Shown: one piece after another, positions 4,590-63,745 of the stretch
Position numbering within the stretch: the stretch's first letter is position 1
How the letters are laid out: every line of letters starts with the position of its first letter
Assembly (NCBI RefSeq): GCF_001642735.1
Contig: NZ_LWHM01000033.1
Coordinates: forward strand, 186,001-250,000
Direction: 5' to 3'
Length of the DNA stretch: 64,000 nt
Origin: Pseudohongiella nitratireducens
GTDB lineage: Bacteria; Pseudomonadota; Gammaproteobacteria; Pseudomonadales; Pseudohongiellaceae
Program-made: the position numbers and the translations under genes
The notes under the pieces: model-generated
The model's database searches: none
The model's input: only the letters and a program-made list of their open reading frames with translations
What the model was told of the DNA's origin: nothing

Positions 4590-5372
4590 ATGGGCGAGAT
4601 TCAGAAAAATAATGATCATTCTCGGTATGCGGAGTCACTGCGGGCATCGTCGCCGGAATTAATTCAATGCCTTCAGGCAAATGATATGGATGGTGCAATA
4701 GCCATTCTGCAACACGTAAACCTGGTTCGCGAGCAGACGCTGTATCAGGAAGTCGGGCGCTTGACCCGTGCTTTGCATAATGCGCTCAAGGATTTTCATC
4801 TGGAAATCGGCCTGGACGGCCGGCTGGATGTCAGTAGTGAGTTGTCAGAAATGGTCGACGCACGAAGTCGGCTTAACTATGTGATTGAAATGACAGAAGA
4901 AGCAGCCAACACAACAATGGATAATGTTGATGCTGCCAGCCCGCGCGTTCAGCGACTCATTGAGCGATGTAATCAGGTACAGGATATCTGGGCCAAAGAG
5001 CGGGCTGATCATGGTGATGAAGAATACAGCGCGGTCAGTCGACTATTGAGCATGATTTCTTCAGAGAGCCAGCAGGTTCAACAGCACCTGCAAAACATAT
5101 TACTGGCTCAGGGCTTTCAGGACCTCAGTGGTCAGGTAATCAGGCGGGTCATTAACCTGGTCCGGGATGTCGAAGAAAGCCTGGTTCGACTGGTTAAACT
5201 GGCCAGTGAGGTGGAGCAGGTTGCTGGCATCCAGTCTGATGCTTTAACCGAAGTAAACCAGAAAGAAACCAATGTCAGCGAAGAGGGGCCTTACGTCAAA
5301 GGTGTGAGCCGTGGTGACGTAGTGAACGATCAGGACGAAGTTGACGAATTGCTGTCCAGCCTGGGATTTTAA
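4590..5372 (+). CDS. cheZ: CheY-P phosphatase CheZ
   Basis: CheZ dephosphorylates CheY-P. The protein is almost wholly helical, as in the family's long four-helix bundle dimer, and carries the catalytic segment QDLSGQVIRRV, in which the Gln attacks CheY-P. The acidic C-terminus DEVDELLSSLGF matches the CheY-tethering helix of CheZ. Length of 260 residues is slightly above the Escherichia coli protein. It lies 16 bases after cheY and 20 before cheA. Confidence 0.93.
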   Translation: MGEIQKNNDHSRYAESLRASSPELIQCLQANDMDGAIAILQHVNLVREQTLYQEVGRLTRALHNALKDFHLEIGLDGRLDVSSELSEMVDARSRLNYVIEMTEEAANTTMDNVDAASPRVQRLIERCNQVQDIWAKERADHGDEEYSAVSRLLSMISSESQQVQQHLQNILLAQGFQDLSGQVIRRVINLVRDVEESLVRLVKLASEVEQVAGIQSDALTEVNQKETNVSEEGPYVKGVSRGDVVNDQDEVDELLSSLGF

Positions 5373-5392
5373 ACCAGTCGGGGGAATGGTAA

Positions 5393-7552
5393 ATGAGTTT
5401 TATAGATGACGAAGAAATTCTGGAAGATTTCCTTCTGGAAGCTGGTGAAATACTAGAACAGTTATCAGAGCAACTGGTGCAACTGGAGCAACAGCCAGAC
5501 GATAAGAATCTGCTGAATGCTATTTTTCGTGGGTTTCATACTGTCAAAGGTGGCGCCGGGTTTTTGCAACTCAATAACCTGGTGGATTGTTGCCATGAAA
5601 CCGAAAACCTCTTTGATCAACTGAGAAATGGTCATTGCCAGGTATCTTCTGAGTTAATGGATGTGGTGCTGAAAGCACTGGATGCCATTAATGCCATGTT
5701 TGATCAGGTTAAAGAAAGGCAAAACCCCGATGCCGCAGATCCGGAGCTGCTTGCTTCACTGGCAGCACTGGCCAATGGTGAAGTGCCACCTGAGCAGTCT
5801 GCTTCGGGTATTAGTCAGGATGTCACCCAGGCCCGGCAGGACGAGGACCTGATGCAGCAGATCGAAGCCTCAACAGGCGCTGTCGAAGGCGCTGCTGAAG
5901 TTGAAGGTGATGCGACTGATGAAATGACAGACGAAGAATTTGAAGCGCTACTCGATCAGCTTCAGGGCAAAACCGCTGGTTCTGAACAGTCTGCTTCGCC
6001 GTCAGAAAATGCCAGCGAGCACGAGGAAAGACAGTCGAATGATGCTGGAGAAGGGGCGGCTGCCAGTCTGGGCAGTGCAGCGTCTGATGAAATCAGTGAT
6101 GATGAGTTCGAGGCTCTGCTGGATGCTCTGCACGGCGAAGGTCGGCACGCCGGACTGCCATCGACAGAGGCGAGTGAATCCTCTTCAGATTCCCAGCCCA
6201 AGCCTGCTGGTAACGTGACCCCTTTCCCGACATCAACCGATGCACCGCCTGCTTCTTCGCCGGCGGAACCGGCAAAAACTGAGGCCAGGCAGCAAGCTGG
6301 CGGGGCAGCGTCTGCAACGCCCCGCCCTGAAGATAAAGTGGCAGCTGCACCTGGTAAAAAAGAGAGCAGCTCTGCTGATACGACTGTCCGGGTTGATACT
6401 CGTCGACTGGACGAAATCATGAATATGGTTGGCGAACTGGTACTGGTCCGTAACCGTCTGGTCCGGTTAGGTTCGACCGCAGGCAATGAAGTGCTTTCCA
6501 AAGCCGTCGGTAATCTTGACCTGGTAACAGCCGATCTTCAGTCCTCGGTTATGAAAACCCGGATGCAGCCTATCAAGAAGGTGTTTGGTCGTTTTCCCAG
6601 GGTTGTGCGAGATCTGGCACGCAACCTCAAGAAAGAAGTTAACCTGGAATTACTGGGTGAAGAGACTGACCTCGATAAAAACCTGGTGGAAGCATTGGCT
6701 GACCCACTGGTGCACCTGGTACGCAATGCGGTTGATCACGGTATCGAACAGCCGGAAGAGCGTGAAGCGCAAGGCAAAGCCCGGCAGGGAACGATCCTGC
6801 TGGCTGCCGAGCAGGAAGGTGACCATATCCTGTTGACCATCAGTGATGATGGCCATGGTATGGATCCGGATGTATTGCGCCGTAAAGCAGTCGAAAAAGG
6901 ATTACTGGATAAAGACGCCGCTGATCGCTTAAGTGATGCTGAATGCTTTGATCTCATCTTTGCCCCGGGTTTCTCAACCAAGAGCCAGATTTCCGATGTA
7001 TCCGGTCGTGGTGTGGGTATGGATGTTGTGAAAACGAAAATCTCACAGCTCAATGGCACCATCGCTATTGAGTCCCGGCCAGGCAAGGGGTCGAGAATCG
7101 AGATCAAAGTTCCACTGACCCTGGCAATTATGCCAACACTGATGATCATGGTGCGAGATCAGACATTTGCGTTACCGCTGGCCAATGTGCATGAAATATT
7201 TAACCTGGACCTCAGAAGAACACATACGGTTGATGGTCAGCAGGTAGTGACAGTCAGAGACAAATCGTTGCCACTGTTTCATTTGGGGCAGTGGCTGGGC
7301 CACGGTGTTGCCAATGATTCGGGTGACAATGGCAAAGTGTCGGATGATGCCAATGTGGTTATCGTCAATGTGGGGGCTCAACGGGTTGGCTTTGTCGTTG
7401 ATACACTCATCGGGCAGGAAGAAGTTGTCATCAAGCCCCTGGGACGAATACTGCATGGAACCGCAGGTATGGCAGGCGCAACAATTACCGGGGATGGCCG
7501 CATTGCGGTCATCCTGGATGTACCTGGATTACTGAAGCGGTATGCCGCATAG
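5393..7552 (+). CDS. cheA: Chemotaxis histidine kinase CheA
   Basis: CheA phosphorylates CheY and CheB in response to receptor state. P1/Hpt is residues 1-130 with phospho-acceptor H49 in FRGFHTVKGG. From about 130 to 330 there is a long Ala/Glu/Ser-rich linker with no recognisable P2 domain, but with two near-identical repeats, DEMTDEEFEALLDQLQG (176-192) and DEISDDEFEALLDALHG (232-248). P3 dimerisation (VRVDTRRLDEIMNMVGEL), P4 kinase with N-box (VRNAVDHGIE) and G boxes (DDGHGMD, GRGVGMDVV), and the P5 CheW-like regulatory domain follow. 719 residues fits polar-flagellate CheA. The repeats may dock the ParP-like protein encoded downstream (inference). Confidence 0.96.
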   Translation: MSFIDDEEILEDFLLEAGEILEQLSEQLVQLEQQPDDKNLLNAIFRGFHTVKGGAGFLQLNNLVDCCHETENLFDQLRNGHCQVSSELMDVVLKALDAINAMFDQVKERQNPDAADPELLASLAALANGEVPPEQSASGISQDVTQARQDEDLMQQIEASTGAVEGAAEVEGDATDEMTDEEFEALLDQLQGKTAGSEQSASPSENASEHEERQSNDAGEGAAASLGSAASDEISDDEFEALLDALHGEGRHAGLPSTEASESSSDSQPKPAGNVTPFPTSTDAPPASSPAEPAKTEARQQAGGAASATPRPEDKVAAAPGKKESSSADTTVRVDTRRLDEIMNMVGELVLVRNRLVRLGSTAGNEVLSKAVGNLDLVTADLQSSVMKTRMQPIKKVFGRFPRVVRDLARNLKKEVNLELLGEETDLDKNLVEALADPLVHLVRNAVDHGIEQPEEREAQGKARQGTILLAAEQEGDHILLTISDDGHGMDPDVLRRKAVEKGLLDKDAADRLSDAECFDLIFAPGFSTKSQISDVSGRGVGMDVVKTKISQLNGTIAIESRPGKGSRIEIKVPLTLAIMPTLMIMVRDQTFALPLANVHEIFNLDLRRTHTVDGQQVVTVRDKSLPLFHLGQWLGHGVANDSGDNGKVSDDANVVIVNVGAQRVGFVVDTLIGQEEVVIKPLGRILHGTAGMAGATITGDGRIAVILDVPGLLKRYAA

Positions 7553-56864: not shown

Positions 56865-59774
56865 ATGAAGTCGAAGTTCCAATTCGAAAATACGCGATTA
56901 AATCTGTTATATGCTGCAATTTCAGCATCCATGATGCTGCCCGCTGCGCAACTAAATGCGCAGGAAAGTACACCTGAAGTCGAAGAAGTGGTTGTTACCG
57001 GTTCTTTCATTCGCCGTACTGAGGGGTTCCAGGCAGCTTCTCCAATCCTTCAGGTTGATGCTGAAGATATCGCCAGTCAAGGCACGCCAAATATGGGTGA
57101 TGTGATCAGTAACCTGAGTTTTAACCAGGGCTCATCAATCACGCAAAACTCTTTAACCGGTGCGTCCAGCACGGCAACATCGATTAACCTGCGCGGCCTT
57201 GGGGCCGGTGCCACACTGAACCTGGTTGATGGCATGCGAGTTATCGGTACTAACGTCAACACCTTCCTGCCACAAATCGCTATCGGCCGTATGGACATCG
57301 TTACTGATGGTGCAGCGGCGCTGTACGGTTCGCAGGCGGTAGCGGGTGTAGTTAACTTTGTGCCTCGCAAGTCTTATGACGGTGTGAAGGTTGAGGTTTA
57401 CCGTCAGGGTGATGATCGTGGTGATTACACAGATGACCAGGTCAGCATGCTGGCTGGTACTGAATGGAATGGCCTGGATATTGTTATTGCCGGTGAATAC
57501 AGGACAAATGGCACGCTGAAAATGATCGATCGCCCTGATCAGATGAATGCGGGTTTGACCTCGTCAAGCACACCAAACCCGGGTCGCTACCTGGTACCTG
57601 TTCGTGATGAGAACGGTAACCTGACAGGCCAAAACCGCACAATTTCAGATCCAAACTGTGGCGGAGTGCGAGAAGATCCAAGCCAAGTGGGTAATAACCC
57701 GAATGGCTTTACCTTCGGTGGTCAGTGCTGGTATGACTTTGGTGAGTTCTGGGACTACCGTGCGGCACAGGACGCCGGCCAGGCATTTGCTCACCTGACG
57801 TATGACTTCAGTTCAGATCTGACCATTTCCGGACAGTGGAGCTATTTCAAGCGCCGTTCATTTAACCGTGGTTCACCTTCAAACCCAGGTGGCCGGGTTG
57901 GTGAGTTACCAACCATTCGCGGTGAATTGCCCGGCAACCCGTTCCCTGCCGTGGATGCCAACGGTAACCAGTTGTACGCCATGGATAGCAATGGCGACGG
58001 TGTGCCGGATCGTGACAGCAGTGGACAGGTTGTTCCTGCTTCAGGTGCAGCAACAGGCATTGCATTTAACGAAGACGTGAGATTTGCAGCATGGCGTCCA
58101 TGGGGTAAACATGGCACGCTTCCTTCACAACTGGGCGCAGATGGTGCAACCGTTGGTAGTGGTTTGATATCTGGCTGGCGTTCAGCCCTGCGTGCTGACT
58201 TTACTGTACCTTTCATTGAGGGTTGGGAAGGTTCGGCAACGTATCTCTACAGTGAGCAGACAGATAACAGTCGTGCTAATAACTTCAGTCTGAGCGCACT
58301 GACTCAAGGACTGAACTGTGATGTCGCGAATGATCGTGATGCCTGCTTTAATCCTTTTGTGTCGCCTGACGGTAGTAACCTGAATTCACAGGCTGTTGCG
58401 GACTCCACCTATGTACAAAATCGTGTAAACGATGTGGAATCACTGCAAACCTTTGATCTGGTACTAAACGGTGTTATTGCTCCCGGTGGTTTCTCTCTGC
58501 CTGGCGGTGATATCGGTGCAGCAATTGGCTACCAGCGTCGCGAAGATCGCTTTGACAACATGCCAAGCCTGCACAGTCTGACTGGTGATGTATTCATTGG
58601 TACGCAACTGTTCCCAAACAGTGATGGTCGAACTGTCGATGCCTACTTTGCTGAGTTTGCATTACCGCTGCACGACACCCTGGAAGCACAGGTTGCCGTC
58701 CGTAATGAGAAATACAGCACAGGGCAGTCATCCACTGATCCGAAATACGGCCTGGTCTATATCCCGACTAACTGGCTGACACTGCGTGCCACTCAGGGTA
58801 CTTCCTTCATTGCACCTTCACTGGATCAGTTGAATGCGCCTGAGTCTTGTGGTCTGACTAACGTTTCCGATCCACTGACTAGCTTTGCTGCGTTCACTGC
58901 GAACTGTTCTCGTGGTAACCCGGACCTGGTCCCTGAGTCTGCCGAAACAATGAGCCTGGGTGTCACTATTGAGCCAATGGATGGTCTGACTGTGGCCCTG
59001 GATTACAGCGAGACAGATTTTGAAGACCGTATTATCAGCTCAACAACGGCTGATATCCTGGCTCGAGATTACTTCAACTTCCAGCAGGCGACTGGCTATA
59101 ACGGTGCTGATAAACCACCAATGGACCTGGTTGCTGCCTGGGTAGCGAACCCCTTGTCTGATGATCGTATCCAGCGTGATCCGAACAATCTGGCACAGAT
59201 TGATCGTATTATCACCAGTGACACCAATGCTTCCAAAATGTCTGTTAAAGCATTCGATCTGAAAGTGGCCTACATGTTTGGAACACGTGATTTTGGTACC
59301 TTCAACCTGGGCCTGGATGGTACTTATGTTGATAGCTACTCCTATCAATTGTCAGAGGACCGTCCTGAAGTCGAAGCTGTTGGCAATCAGAACGCACTCA
59401 CAGGTGCCGTACCGCCGATGCCGGAATTCAAGGCTAACGCGAGCCTGGGTTGGTCTATGGATAACCATTCTGCCAACATCATCGTTCGCTATATCGATGA
59501 GATCACGTTTGACGCAGACAAGTTCTCGTTCCAGCGTTTGCTGCCATTCAGCAACTATCGTGACGTAAGCGTACTGCGTGCTTCTACCATCACAGACGCC
59601 AGCTACACGTATTCTGGTCTGGAAGGTCTGGGTGGCGAGTTTGCATTCACCGTGGGTGCCCGCAACCTGTTTGACCGTCTGCCGCAGAAAGTCCCTATGC
59701 TGGGCGGCATGGAGTCCGTGTTGTACGATCCAACAGGCCGCATGGTCTACGGTCGTGTAACATTCGACCTGTAA
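56865..59774 (+). CDS. TonB-dependent outer-membrane receptor
   Basis: 969 residues. Signal peptide (about 1-36, likely cut after LNA), TonB-box-like EEVVVTG, plug domain (about 45-170; SINLRGLGAGATLNLVDG, ALYGSQAVAGVVNF) and a 22-strand barrel. It is of the SusC-like/oligosaccharide or peptide receptor type with no iron signature. A loop carries DSNGDGVPDRD, like a thrombospondin-type calcium site. The end is VTFDL; most such proteins end in Phe. No transporter or enzyme genes adjoin it, so the substrate is unknown. I chose ATG 56865 (AAGGGG upstream, signal peptide follows) over the open frame to 56757. Confidence 0.9.
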   Translation: MKSKFQFENTRLNLLYAAISASMMLPAAQLNAQESTPEVEEVVVTGSFIRRTEGFQAASPILQVDAEDIASQGTPNMGDVISNLSFNQGSSITQNSLTGASSTATSINLRGLGAGATLNLVDGMRVIGTNVNTFLPQIAIGRMDIVTDGAAALYGSQAVAGVVNFVPRKSYDGVKVEVYRQGDDRGDYTDDQVSMLAGTEWNGLDIVIAGEYRTNGTLKMIDRPDQMNAGLTSSSTPNPGRYLVPVRDENGNLTGQNRTISDPNCGGVREDPSQVGNNPNGFTFGGQCWYDFGEFWDYRAAQDAGQAFAHLTYDFSSDLTISGQWSYFKRRSFNRGSPSNPGGRVGELPTIRGELPGNPFPAVDANGNQLYAMDSNGDGVPDRDSSGQVVPASGAATGIAFNEDVRFAAWRPWGKHGTLPSQLGADGATVGSGLISGWRSALRADFTVPFIEGWEGSATYLYSEQTDNSRANNFSLSALTQGLNCDVANDRDACFNPFVSPDGSNLNSQAVADSTYVQNRVNDVESLQTFDLVLNGVIAPGGFSLPGGDIGAAIGYQRREDRFDNMPSLHSLTGDVFIGTQLFPNSDGRTVDAYFAEFALPLHDTLEAQVAVRNEKYSTGQSSTDPKYGLVYIPTNWLTLRATQGTSFIAPSLDQLNAPESCGLTNVSDPLTSFAAFTANCSRGNPDLVPESAETMSLGVTIEPMDGLTVALDYSETDFEDRIISSTTADILARDYFNFQQATGYNGADKPPMDLVAAWVANPLSDDRIQRDPNNLAQIDRIITSDTNASKMSVKAFDLKVAYMFGTRDFGTFNLGLDGTYVDSYSYQLSEDRPEVEAVGNQNALTGAVPPMPEFKANASLGWSMDNHSANIIVRYIDEITFDADKFSFQRLLPFSNYRDVSVLRASTITDASYTYSGLEGLGGEFAFTVGARNLFDRLPQKVPMLGGMESVLYDPTGRMVYGRVTFDL

Positions 59775-59927: not shown

Positions 59928-60004
59928 TGGTCGGGACGGCAGGATTTGAACCTACGACCACCACACCCCCAGTGTGGTGCGCTACCAGACTGCGCTACGC
60001 CCCG
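59928..60004 (-). tRNA. tRNA-Pro (GGG)
   Basis: Minus strand: acceptor CGGGGCG pairs with CGTCCCG (one G-T pair), discriminator A, encoded CCA. Anticodon stem CCACA/TGTGG with loop CTGGGGG gives anticodon GGG. T-arm GTAGG-TTCAAAT-CCTGC is consistent with a mismatch tolerated at its end. 77 bases. Confidence 0.95.
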
Positions 60005-60046: not shown

Positions 60047-60272
60047 GAGTAATGCGATTGAATTCACTCAGTCACTGTGCAGAATAAGCTTCATCTTTAG
60101 CCAGTTTGTATCTCATTGGCCTCTGGCACAGGAATTCCTCCTGGAATTGCAATAAAGTCGCCGTTCAGATCACAATTCCATGCATCTCTGCTTGGATCGA
60201 ACACTGGCTCGTCGTACACTCTCATCTTACTTCCTTGATTCCTTAACCGGACCGCGAAAGGTTCCTTTAATT

Positions 60273-61526
60273 ATGATCCCGCCATTCTCTGATTACACTG
60301 TATCGTCCGAGCTGGAAAGCCTGGATGATTCACAGATAGAGAAGTTCTTTCGTGCTGGCAGCACCATCCTTTCGCAAGGAGAGTCTGGCAATTGTGCTTA
60401 TTTTATTTTAAGCGGTCGTGTATCAATCAGTGTGCGACGCTCAGACAATACCGTTGTAGAAGTTGGTACCCGAAGTGCAGGTAACCTGATAGGGGAAATG
60501 GCCATTGTTGATGACGGTACTCGAAGTGCAACGGTTATCGCTATGGATGATTGTCGGTTACTGGAAATTTCCAAGAGCGATTTCTCCAAAGCATTAGCCA
60601 ATGCCAGTCCTTTGGTCGCGTTAGTGACGCGGCTGATTCTGTTGCGCTATCGCGATGTGTTGCTTCGCACCGAAGACCTCAAAGGTCTTGCCAACCATAG
60701 CGATATGCTGGAACAGACGGAAAAGAGCAGTACGGAGCTTAGCCAGGTCCTGGCTTCTGTGAAAGTGGCAAAAGAATTCAGGTTAGCCATCGCCAATGAT
60801 CAGTTACTGCTGGAATACCAACCCCTGGTTTCTCTGGATAACAGGAAGATTTTGGGAATAGAGGCCTTAATGCGTTGGCAGCATCCGGTTCATGGCCGAA
60901 TGGCGCCGGATAGTTTCATACCCATGGCCGAAGATACCGGGCTAATTGTAGATGCTACCTGGTGGGTGTTTGAGCATGCCTTGGCTGCACTGCGACGTAT
61001 CCAGGACCAGACGGGTAACAGAGAGATTTTTGTCAGCGTTAATGTGTCTGCCCAAGATTTCAATGATCCGGCCATGCTGGATCGTTTGTTGCTGATTCTT
61101 GAGAAGCATGAGCTGGAAGCACGACACCTGCATCTGGAAATAACGGAGCGTTTGTTACTGCGACAATCTGATCAGGTGAGGGGGCTCCTTAACCGATGTC
61201 GGCAAAGTGGCATGTCTATTGCCATTGATGATTTTGGTACGGGTTATTCTGCCCTGAGCTACCTGCATACTTATCCTGTTTCGACATTGAAAATTGATAA
61301 GAGTTTTGTTGGTCAGATGCTGGATGACAAACAGGCATTAGGACTGGTTCGTTCCATATTGTCCCTGGGAGACAATATGTCACTGAACGTCTTTGCAGAA
61401 GGTGTTGAAACAGAGGAGCAAGCCAAGACCTTGCAGTCGCTGGACTGTAAAATTGCGCAAGGGTTTTATTTCGCGCGCCCCATGCCTGAGAATCAGTTAC
61501 TCACTACCATAATGGAACAGCACTGA
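60273..61526 (+). CDS. Cyclic-nucleotide-binding domain fused to EAL phosphodiesterase
   Basis: 417 residues. Residues 15-125 form a CNB domain with the phosphate-binding cassette IGEMAIVDDGTRSATV (conserved Gly-Glu and Arg). A short helical linker (140-165) leads to an EAL domain with every catalytic motif: IEALMRW (E198), LEITERLL, IDDFGTGYSAL, LKIDKSF and FAEGVE. It should hydrolyse cyclic di-GMP, probably under control of a cyclic nucleotide. No membrane segment. I chose ATG 60273 (MIPPFSDY); the frame is open to 60180 but that part lacks similarity. The next gene starts right at the stop. Confidence 0.88.
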   Translation: MIPPFSDYTVSSELESLDDSQIEKFFRAGSTILSQGESGNCAYFILSGRVSISVRRSDNTVVEVGTRSAGNLIGEMAIVDDGTRSATVIAMDDCRLLEISKSDFSKALANASPLVALVTRLILLRYRDVLLRTEDLKGLANHSDMLEQTEKSSTELSQVLASVKVAKEFRLAIANDQLLLEYQPLVSLDNRKILGIEALMRWQHPVHGRMAPDSFIPMAEDTGLIVDATWWVFEHALAALRRIQDQTGNREIFVSVNVSAQDFNDPAMLDRLLLILEKHELEARHLHLEITERLLLRQSDQVRGLLNRCRQSGMSIAIDDFGTGYSALSYLHTYPVSTLKIDKSFVGQMLDDKQALGLVRSILSLGDNMSLNVFAEGVETEEQAKTLQSLDCKIAQGFYFARPMPENQLLTTIMEQH

Positions 61527-62030
61527 GTGTTTTCATGGCTTGCAGACTGGGTTTCTTCAACCAGCCTGACCGAGGCCAGTAGAGCTTTTCTGGGTAGTGC
61601 CAGTGTTGTACCGCCGCTGGTTCAAACCATTCATTTAAGTGGTGTGGTTCTGTTGACTGCCTGCGTCATTTTTCCTTCCATAGGCATATTCACCGCTTCT
61701 CCGGTGTTATTTAAATATCACCAGTTTCGGGCCTATGGATTTCGGTGTTTCTGGGTGGCTATCGGAATGATGTTAAGCTCAGGGCTGCCTTTTTTCCTGG
61801 CCAGACCTTATCGCTACGCGTCCAACCCGGTGTTCAGTATCAAAGCTGGATTATTGCTGGTGGGTTTGCCTTTGGCGATTGCGGTGTTGCTTATTTATCG
61901 TCGACAACTGGAATCGCGTTGGTATCTGAAATTGCTGGCAGTCATAACGATTATGGTATGGGTAGCACTGATACTGGCAGGGCGCTGGATTGCCTATTCT
62001 GAGTACCTGTTCTGGCCAGGGGACTTCTAA
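61527..62030 (+). CDS. Four-helix membrane protein (DUF6644-like), paralogue 1
   Basis: 167 residues, four membrane helices (about 30-50, 68-88, 100-118, 130-150). Conserved points shared with the next gene: a His in helix 1 (TIHLSG, H36), a Trp before SSG, NPVFSIKAGLLL, and AGRWIAY at the end. It resembles uncharacterised small membrane families such as DUF6644; the name is tentative. The His and Arg/Trp pattern could suit a haem or quinone site, but this is inference. GTG start directly after the EAL gene stop, so translation is coupled. Confidence 0.65.
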   Translation: MFSWLADWVSSTSLTEASRAFLGSASVVPPLVQTIHLSGVVLLTACVIFPSIGIFTASPVLFKYHQFRAYGFRCFWVAIGMMLSSGLPFFLARPYRYASNPVFSIKAGLLLVGLPLAIAVLLIYRRQLESRWYLKLLAVITIMVWVALILAGRWIAYSEYLFWPGDF

Positions 62031-62506
62031 TGCTGGACAGTGAGTTCTGGTTACAACTGGAGTATACCTCGCTCGCTGGTGCGATTGGTGCGACCTGGCT
62101 GTTTCCGCTTTTTAATTCACTTCATGTACTTGCCTTTGCCTTCATGCTGGCAGCCTTGTTCTGGCTGGATCTGGGGTTGATGATGGGCCGCTGGCAGCAG
62201 GTTCCGGTAAAAGAGACGATGCGCAGCTGGTTGCCCTGGATCTGGGTCAGCTTTAGTGCGTCGGTCGTAACGGGAGGCGCGTTGTTTATTACCCGTGCCA
62301 GCGCACATGTGCTGAACCCGGCATTTCAGTGGAAAATGCTGCTCATGCTGGCTGCGGGTTTAAATATGTTGCTTCTGCATCTTAGTCTGCGCAAACTGGC
62401 GAGTACAGACGCCCCCGGAACGTTAGCAGCCTGGCAGGCTGGCCTGTCACTGTTGCTGTGGTCAGGTGTTGTACTGTCGGGGCGCTGGATAGGGCATATT
62501 GTTTAA
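62030..62506 (+). CDS. Four-helix membrane protein (DUF6644-like), paralogue 2
   Basis: 158 residues, four membrane helices. It shares with the preceding protein the helix-1 His (SLHVLA, H32), TGG before FITRA, NPAFQWKMLLML and SGRWIGH near the C-terminus. The start ATG overlaps the preceding stop by one base, so the two are made together and may form a heterodimer. No function is known to me for the family. Confidence 0.65.
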   Translation: MLDSEFWLQLEYTSLAGAIGATWLFPLFNSLHVLAFAFMLAALFWLDLGLMMGRWQQVPVKETMRSWLPWIWVSFSASVVTGGALFITRASAHVLNPAFQWKMLLMLAAGLNMLLLHLSLRKLASTDAPGTLAAWQAGLSLLLWSGVVLSGRWIGHIV

Positions 62507-62533
62507 TATATTGCGCGGTGATAGGTGATCAGC

Positions 62534-63745
62534 ATGAGTGAAAGCTATTCTCAAGCCTACATTGTAGATGGTGTCCGGACCGCATCCGGACGCCGTAACG
62601 GTTCTCTAAGCCAGGTACATCCTGTCGATCTGGGAGCAGCCGTTGTTGATGAATTGCTGGACCGTATTCGGATTCCCGGCGATGTCATTGATGACGTCAT
62701 TTTTGGCTGTGTCAGTCAAATGGGAGCGCAAGCCAACAATATTGCCCGCAATGTGGTGCTGGCTTCCCGGTTGCCTCTGGAGGTTCCCGGCGTCACGGTA
62801 GATCGCCAGTGCGGCTCATCCTTGCAGGCAATCCAGTTTGGTGCCCAGGCTGTCATGTCAGGCACGCAGGATTTAATCATTTGCGGTGGCGTTGAAGTGA
62901 TGAGTCTTCTGCCGTTGGGCAGTACAGTGAGTGACGTGCAATCCCTGGGGAGAGGGGCGCCCAGAGGAGAACGCATAGACGAGCGTTACCCGGGTGTCGA
63001 GTTCAGTCAGTTTATTGGCGCTGAATTGCTGGCTAAAAAATACCATTTAAGTCGTCTGGAAATGGAAAAGTTTGCGGTACTGAGTCATCAGCGGGCAGCA
63101 AAAGCCATACAAAACGGGTTTTTCGATCAGGAAATCGTTCCTGTTGAGGTTCTCTCTGGTGCAGTTGGCGATGAAGGCAGCCGGGTTTTTAACGTTGATG
63201 AAGGGGTTCGCTTTGATGCCAGCCTCAGTGCCATGCAAAGTCTCTCTCCGCTACAGGAAGGGGGCTTGATTACTGCAGCAACGGCCAGCCAGATAAGTGA
63301 TGGAGCAGCTGCCGTTCTCATCGCCAATCAGCGTGCCGTTGCCCGCTATGATTTGCCCGTCAGGGCGCGAATTCATACCATGACAGTGACGGGCTCCGAC
63401 CCTGAACTGATGCTGGAGGGACCTATCCCGGCAACTGAGCGCCTGCTGGACAGAGCAGGCATCACACTGGATGATATTGATCTCTACGAAGTCAATGAAG
63501 CCTTCGCTTCCGTCCCATTAGCCTGGGTTAAAGCCATGGATGCCGATATCAGGCGACTGAATGTCAATGGTGGTGCCATCGCACTGGGGCATCCGCTGGG
63601 GGCGACTGGCGCAAAGTTAATGACAACTTTACTGTCAACACTCGAGAGGCGGGAATTGCGCCTGGGACTACTGGTAATTTGTGAGGGCGGAGGCACAGCC
63701 AATGCCTGTTTAATAGAACGTTTGGAACTACCACTGGATTTATGA
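62534..63745 (+). CDS. Acetyl-CoA acetyltransferase (thiolase)
   Basis: 403 residues, thiolase fold. The acyl-accepting Cys is in DRQCGSSLQAI, the His in GHPLGATGAKL and the second Cys in ICEGGGTANA. Start of the enzyme is VDGVRTASGRR. It could act in fatty acid breakdown (beta-ketothiolase) or acetoacetyl-CoA formation; substrate length is not decidable. ATG 62534 has AGG 8 bases upstream; GTG 62525 is an alternative. The stop overlaps the next gene (ATGA). Confidence 0.92.
   Translation: MSESYSQAYIVDGVRTASGRRNGSLSQVHPVDLGAAVVDELLDRIRIPGDVIDDVIFGCVSQMGAQANNIARNVVLASRLPLEVPGVTVDRQCGSSLQAIQFGAQAVMSGTQDLIICGGVEVMSLLPLGSTVSDVQSLGRGAPRGERIDERYPGVEFSQFIGAELLAKKYHLSRLEMEKFAVLSHQRAAKAIQNGFFDQEIVPVEVLSGAVGDEGSRVFNVDEGVRFDASLSAMQSLSPLQEGGLITAATASQISDGAAAVLIANQRAVARYDLPVRARIHTMTVTGSDPELMLEGPIPATERLLDRAGITLDDIDLYEVNEAFASVPLAWVKAMDADIRRLNVNGGAIALGHPLGATGAKLMTTLLSTLERRELRLGLLVICEGGGTANACLIERLELPLDL

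Follow-up and report, generated by a model that had tools for sequence, protein, structure and literature searches.

Two adjoining genes, A and B, of the window (the whole stretch of 64,000 nucleotides of Pseudohongiella nitratireducens DNA that was analysed) encode paralogous four-helix membrane proteins akin to the family DUF6644 (PF20349). It is well supported that the pair is a real unit, an ancient heteropair in which A and B are two halves of one membrane protein; as the leading, still tentative explanation, A-B would be an eight-helix heterodimer that most likely holds b-type haem and passes electrons to or from the quinone pool. Pfam assigns DUF6644 no function, and a literature search for "DUF6644" or "PF20349" returned no paper.

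The features of the locus are collected in Table 1. The layout given in the initial annotation was confirmed: genes A and B adjoin with an overlap of one base at 62030, and A starts directly at the stop of the CNB-EAL gene, the TGA (61524–61526) of that frame abutting the GTG (61527) of A. No alternative in-frame start for gene A was present in the frame listing. The CNB-EAL gene may really start at 60273, with an in-frame ATG; the EAL catalytic motifs of its protein were presumably intact, as judged on reading. A tRNA-Pro (59928–60004, minus strand) lies between the TonB receptor gene and the EAL gene; a tRNA-Gly reported by ARAGORN within the TonB receptor gene (57968–58058) is probably a false positive.

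Table 1. Coordinates of the A-B unit, its conserved residues and motifs, and the adjoining genes (window positions).
Feature	Position	Strand	Description
CNB-EAL gene	60180..61526	+	neighbour outside the core unit; Pfam cNMP_binding E 4.2e-22, EAL E 5.5e-70
Gene A	61527..62030	+	GTG start, 167 aa; first subunit, DUF6644-like four-helix membrane protein
A His36	61632..61634	+	helix-1 His, candidate haem/metal ligand; His in 24/24 A orthologues
A Gly53	61683..61685	+	replaces near-invariant Arg at the end of helix 1
A NPVFSIK motif (residues 100–106)	61824..61844	+	Lys column 216/219 in the DUF6644 set
A GRWI motif (residues 152–155)	61980..61991	+	Gly 215/217, Arg 214/217 in the DUF6644 set
Gene B	62030..62506	+	ATG start, 158 aa; second subunit, DUF6644-like four-helix membrane protein
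B His32	62123..62125	+	helix-1 His, candidate haem/metal ligand; His in 22/22 B orthologues
B Gly49	62174..62176	+	replaces near-invariant Arg at the end of helix 1
B His93	62306..62308	+	between helices 2 and 3; candidate second ligand
B NPAFQWK motif (residues 96–102)	62315..62335	+	conserved in the DUF6644 set
B GRWI motif (residues 151–154)	62480..62491	+	conserved in the DUF6644 set
B His156	62495..62497	+	end of helix 4; candidate second ligand
Thiolase gene	62525..63745	+	downstream neighbour outside the unit; recognised by reading; adjoins B in the window's genus

Comparison of A with B by BLASTP gave 20% identity over 131 aa (E 1e-4), and the profile-profile alignment a probability of 99.8% (E 3.3e-28, 133 columns); judged by sequence, the two are clearly paralogues. 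Four long helices were predicted per protein, window B being modelled directly and A via a fused relative. On reading of the sequences, both proteins contain a helix-1 His (A H36, B H32), a helix-2 Trp, NPxFxxK and GRWI; these common motifs of the initial annotation stand, and its longer form NPxFxxKxxLL is exact in A only, the B version being NPxFxxKxxLM. Nearly full-length matches to PF20349 were obtained for A (22.3 bits, E 1.6e-4) and B (21.1 bits, E 3.8e-4), both below the curated gathering cut-off of 27 bits, and the two are therefore termed divergent DUF6644-like relatives, not formal members; a natural A-B fusion orthologue (L026) scored 87.7 bits. Like DUF6644 proteins, A and B have the invariant helix-1 His, the Lys of NPxFxxK, the C-terminal GR motif and the tandem pairing; unlike them, both have Gly in place of the Arg at the end of helix 1.

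Conservation was read from 219 distinct DUF6644 domains collected by similarity, identical frames being counted once and one bacterial family dominating the set. The helix-1 His was found in 217/217 domains covering the column; the lack of a conserved His in wider alignments, named initially as grounds for giving up the proposal, was thus not observed. The helix-3 Lys and the C-terminal Gly and Arg are nearly invariant (counts in Table 1). In B orthologues His93, His117 and His156 were each conserved in 21/22 and Met113 in 20/22; all of these (the B-type His 93, 117 and 156 and Met113) are retained in the 17 fusions of A1. The A orthologues have Tyr97 and Tyr157 (24/24 each) at the equivalents of B His93 and His156, and since B has His and A has Tyr at two equivalent positions, the two subunits probably hold different sites. 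Across the 219 domains the same two columns contain Tyr in 110 and 116 and His in 68 and 68 cases, respectively. A second conserved His was found neither in the A orthologues nor across the whole DUF6644 set, and no column of the family reached 60% Met or Cys. His32, His93 and His156 of B lie on one face of the model, as judged by position along the helices. The Arg at the end of helix 1 was present in 215/217 DUF6644 domains, A and B of the window being the sole exceptions; within one genome, the two partners have lost the Arg in parallel, to Gly.

B matched in 35 of 56 genomes, a figure that counts the window's own genome and paralogues, and a fused A-B relative in 117 of 137 genomes of the family (E <= 1e-15, paralogues counted); of 299 genomes sampled from the phylum, 12 (among them the window's own) contained DUF6644 at E 1e-6. 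No match was obtained in a plasmid search with B. Among 11 proteobacterial DUF6644 loci outside the family, seven were tandem pairs and four were single copy within flanks of ~1.5 kb. Within the collected set, 208 of the 219 domains stand in groups of at least two, 194 of them in exact pairs; 11 are solitary, at least three of these at contig ends. A and B form one stop-free open frame in 20/137 family genomes, all of the genus g4 (L083–L102); further A-B fusions may be present in G079, in which the A and B matches fall on one frame of 373 aa, and in L107, which is truncated at a contig end. Two other candidates (L077 and L078) were rejected as fusions, a single DUF6644 domain being situated behind an unrelated-looking N-terminal stretch.

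In the FastTree phylogeny one branch parts the first from the second members of the pairs in 180/194 cases (93%); 200 label shuffles, a crude null that ignores kinship, averaged 55% and never exceeded 61%. Support for the separating branch was only 0.48; a clade of 74 domains, all of them second members, had 0.94. Separation of first and second members is expected of an old, obligate heterodimer. Together with the natural fusions, the conserved tandem order and the confident eight-helix model of the fusion (below), this gives good support to the heterodimer proposed initially. Occurrence of the genes apart in relatives, which was to count against that proposal, was encountered for the EAL gene and not for A and B.

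AlphaFold2 modelling of a natural A-B fusion (alignment of 60 rows: fusions, A and B proteins) gave two consecutive four-helix bundles, pLDDT 88.7, pTM 0.85. VIA-align of this model: CydA-type subunits at the top, Z 17–20 (7ose_A: Z 20.1, rmsd 3.8, 274 aligned); alternative complex III, Z 14–17, overlapping the lower end of CydA (8k9e_C: Z 17.2, rmsd 4.1, 275 aligned); polysulfide reductase PsrC (2vpw_C: Z 13.3, rmsd 4.3, 223 aligned); next unrelated row, Z 9.9. Foldseek of the same model: best E 4e-3, none under 0.001. Window B modelled alone (pLDDT 86.8) was aligned with the second bundle of CydA 7d5i (Z 9.1, rmsd 3.6, 137 aligned), where it ties with unrelated helical bundles; CydA was absent from the 34 Foldseek matches of this model. 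According to these models, the natural A-B fusion resembles the eight-helix core of CydA (PF01654), a likeness of tandem four-helix bundles that is predicted on the fused relative and not on the window pair. Unlike CydA, A-B has no Q-loop, no ninth helix and no family-wide Met ligand, and no CydB-like gene was noted beside the pair.

The register of the helix-1 His residues on CydA was read from the first and last aligned residues only and presumes that there is no gap between the first aligned pair and the His. His39 of the fusion was found opposite residue 19 in 6rko_A and 6rx4_A (E. coli bd-I) and residue 18 in 7d5i_A (M. smegmatis); His32 of B, in the B-alone model, was opposite residue 185 of 7d5i_A. 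According to the structural literature, the haem d ligand is His18 in M. smegmatis and His19 in E. coli CydA, and a haem b558 ligand is His185 and His186, respectively (PMC8324918). With respect to the CydA ligands His19, His186, Met393 and Glu445, the His residues of A and B fall on the first two in some rows only: in 5doq_A His39 is placed on residue 25, whereas the ligand is His21; the register in 7oy2_C is four residues off that in 7ose_A, and B alone is placed on residue 21 of the first bundle of 7oy2_C (ligand numbers were not read for rows 9r2g, 8b4o, 7nkz and 9fka). The modelled register of the A and B His residues on the haem d and b558 ligands of CydA is no more than suggestive. The positive-inside signal is modest: Lys and Arg are in excess in loops 1-2 and 3-4, which points weakly to termini that both lie outside, but loop 2-3 is basic as well. 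In that orientation the helix-1 His, the Lys, the GR motif, His93 and His156 would be at the periplasmic side, where the cytochrome bd haems are located (PMC8324918, PMC9846854).

Sequence kinship was examined by hhalign with the 219-domain profile: three small CopD-family proteins, E 1.3e-5, probability 80%, all four helices aligned, His on His; HemJ, E 4.9e-4, probability 32%, His on His with the helix-3 Lys also aligned; full CopD, E 0.0086; CydA, E 0.0029 in a different register, with a second alignment (0.052) His on His; reversed-sequence and RND controls, E 0.036–0.28. The profiles A1, A3 and A4 gave against CydA E 0.081, 0.0016 and 0.021 with a probability of 0.7–16%, the helix-1 His being beyond the aligned part; at the level of sequence, no significant similarity of A-B to CydA was found. 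Against HemJ, the profile of B alone (E 0.16) and that of A alone (E 0.028) gave no significant match. Searches of PDB with the A1 profile (E <= 10) and with the HemJ profile (E <= 1) gave 0 matches each, and neither A nor B matched PF05425 (CopD) at E <= 1 (most matches above 0.1 being filtered out), PF03653 (HemJ) or PF01654 (CydA). Below the family cut-offs, a DUF6644 protein of the same genome matched UPF0093 (HemJ; E 7.4e-4), and L058:3903-4403 matched DUF2214 (E 6.6e-5).

The gene neighbourhood was compared among the relatives. In the window's genus (g1) the EAL gene is directly upstream of A in 12/14 loci and touches or overlaps A wherever the starts were assignable; in two loci of this genus (L010, L011) it is not present. 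A TonB receptor gene was found upstream in seven of the eight g1 loci with long flanks (the window, L035–L040, L057). The EAL gene adjoins A also in the one g7 locus and in 2/10 g5 loci; in the other eight g5 loci three genes are located between EAL and A-B. Those of L180 (1634-5620) encode three subunits of the xanthine-dehydrogenase type: one for 2Fe-2S, which bears a twin-Arg signal, one for molybdopterin and one for FAD; the insert of the other seven g5 loci was matched to it by gene size alone. Outside g1, g5, g7 and g8, ilvD was upstream of A in 22/22 loci examined that had upstream sequence. A GGDEF gene is directly downstream of B in L050, L053, L054 (6516-7610) and L056 and upstream of ilvD in L051 and L052; a second kind of c-di-GMP enzyme thus stands beside the pair in some relatives.

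For other pairs the scan covered 84 of 120 near neighbours, and its family counts are given without a background rate; 24 genes already studied (L060, L180, L182, L054, L192, L051) were dropped, as were eight genes of L076 and L078 and one frame each of L066, L070, L075 and L079. Among 25 of 64 families listed for these 84 neighbours, PQQ was counted once, NHL six times and DUF6152 three times. Redox enzymes occur as individual examples, namely the Mo hydroxylase in g5 and cytochrome c with a PQQ enzyme downstream in several loci; ten DUF6644 neighbours that were scanned included a PQQ enzyme at L116 and L123 and a GMC oxidoreductase at L120. With PQQ in one of 84 neighbours, no general link to redox enzymes is claimed; the suggestion that the pairs generally stand beside redox enzymes was rejected, no consistent redox partner being found among the 84. 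In L065 a DUF6152 gene (4960-5463) is situated directly upstream of a DUF6644 pair.

The initial annotation had joined the EAL gene to A and B as a possible three-gene system, in which the CNB-EAL phosphodiesterase would work with A-B as a redox or haem sensor. This is improbable. The adjacency of EAL and A in 12/14 g1 loci and in the g7 locus speaks for it, as do the GGDEF genes after B or before ilvD in the six loci named above; against it, the EAL gene is adjacent only in some genera, is missing from L010 and L011 and gives way to ilvD upstream of A in the 22 loci examined outside g1, g5, g7 and g8, so that co-occurrence of the three genes, proposed initially as a check, was not borne out. 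In six genomes searched for EAL and GGDEF at E <= 1e-10, no match was found in G024 and G028 (99% complete), of which the former carries a natural A-B fusion and the latter an A-B pair; the pair thus seems to work there without c-di-GMP signalling. The three g1 genomes searched contained 16–21 EAL and 29–38 GGDEF matches each, so that such a neighbour is not very surprising. At most, the EAL protein is a lineage-specific regulator or a hitch-hiking neighbour, and the link is local. More weight, within the range of the unlikely, is given to a haem-free quinone subunit of the NrfD/PsrC kind, in which the helix-1 His, Lys and Arg would line a quinol site at the periplasmic side and a soluble dehydrogenase would feed in electrons. 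The NrfD-like subunits of alternative complex III and PsrC follow next after CydA in the fold comparison (Z 13–17), which predicts a like tandem four-helix-bundle architecture, and three genes, in L180 those of Mo hydroxylase subunits, separate EAL from A-B in most g5 loci; however, CydA outranks NrfD, sequence kinship favours CopD and HemJ, redox enzymes are not general neighbours, and no iron-sulfur partner gene stands directly beside the window pair.

Also doubtful is a role in the handling of copper or another metal, A-B working as a two-chain counterpart of the eight-helix CopD and B providing a metal site in His32, His93 and His156. Such a role would account for the best sequence kinship, that to the small CopD-family proteins (three sequences), for the length of the fused A-B, which resembles that of CopD, and for the three conserved His residues on one face of the B model; A-B and CopD have in common the helix-1 His, the four-helix unit and, once A and B are joined, eight helices, and DUF6152, of unknown function, is among the neighbours. 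A-B nevertheless consists of two chains without a PF05425 match, A has Tyr at two of the three B His positions, a family column rich in Met or Cys was not found, and no copper gene occurs among the neighbour families listed (25 of 64 for the set of 84). HemJ (UPF0093) consists of one protein and is not known as a tandem heteropair, and a HemJ-like protoporphyrinogen oxidase activity of A-B is regarded as very improbable: the profile alignment, with the helix-1 His and helix-3 Lys in register, and the sub-cut-off UPF0093 match of the DUF6644 protein point to it, but most HemJ invariants, bar this His and Lys, are absent from A and B on reading, the same genome has a true HemJ elsewhere (E 3.5e-48), and PF03653 was matched in 19/20 family genomes searched. 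By the title of a 2018 paper, HemJ is reportedly a b-type haem protein. Whether HemJ possesses a specific cofactor at all is, according to a 2020 review, not known (PMC7242693).

The preferred reading, the haem-holding heterodimer, may be put as follows. A and B would form an obligate heterodimer, a single eight-helix protein of the inner membrane in which each half is a DUF6644-type four-helix bundle, distantly kin to CopD and HemJ and with the fold of the CydA/NrfD tandem bundles. Up to one b-type haem per subunit would be held near the periplasmic face with the helix-1 His as axial ligand; in B, His93 or His156, where A has Tyr, could serve as second ligand, and the haem propionates would be anchored by the conserved Lys (helix 3 start) and Arg (helix 4 end). 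The complex would link a redox partner to the quinone pool by electron transfer. That A-B binds haem or metal and is a candidate electron carrier is plausible from the invariant His, the extra His residues of B, the CydA-like model and the CopD/HemJ kinship. A b-type haem on the helix-1 His is suggested by the predicted fold and the kinship, and exchange of electrons with the quinone pool by what is known of CydA, HemJ and NrfD; the topology and the direction of electron flow are those that we infer.

A wider proposal, considered unlikely at present, is that the DUF6644 heteropairs form an undescribed class of membrane b-type cytochromes, a minimal bd-like core of two separate CopD/HemJ-type subunits whose haem sites, at the positions of haem d and b558 of CydA, are unequal (His/Tyr in A, multi-His in B), and serve as a quinone-linked module. 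If it holds, the pairs would be widespread in Proteobacteria, sometimes fused, and act as a general electron module for different dehydrogenases, and would show how CydA-type eight-helix haem proteins could arise by pairing of four-helix units; confirmation of haem would make them a new membrane cytochrome class, plausible as an evolutionary step on the way to tandem four-helix-bundle enzymes. Heteropairing, fusions, the invariant His and the CydA-like predicted fold lead in any case to a concrete hypothesis for the function-less DUF6644 that can be checked by a single absorbance spectrum.

A second tandem DUF6644 pair was found in the same genome (C16:8256-9291), its members scoring 285.6 and 30.7 bits; NHL-propeller proteins flank this pair (L059:8151-9294) on both sides. 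Four DUF6644 genes in a row were observed in an Acidobacteriia MAG (L058:3426-5483) and likewise in L069.
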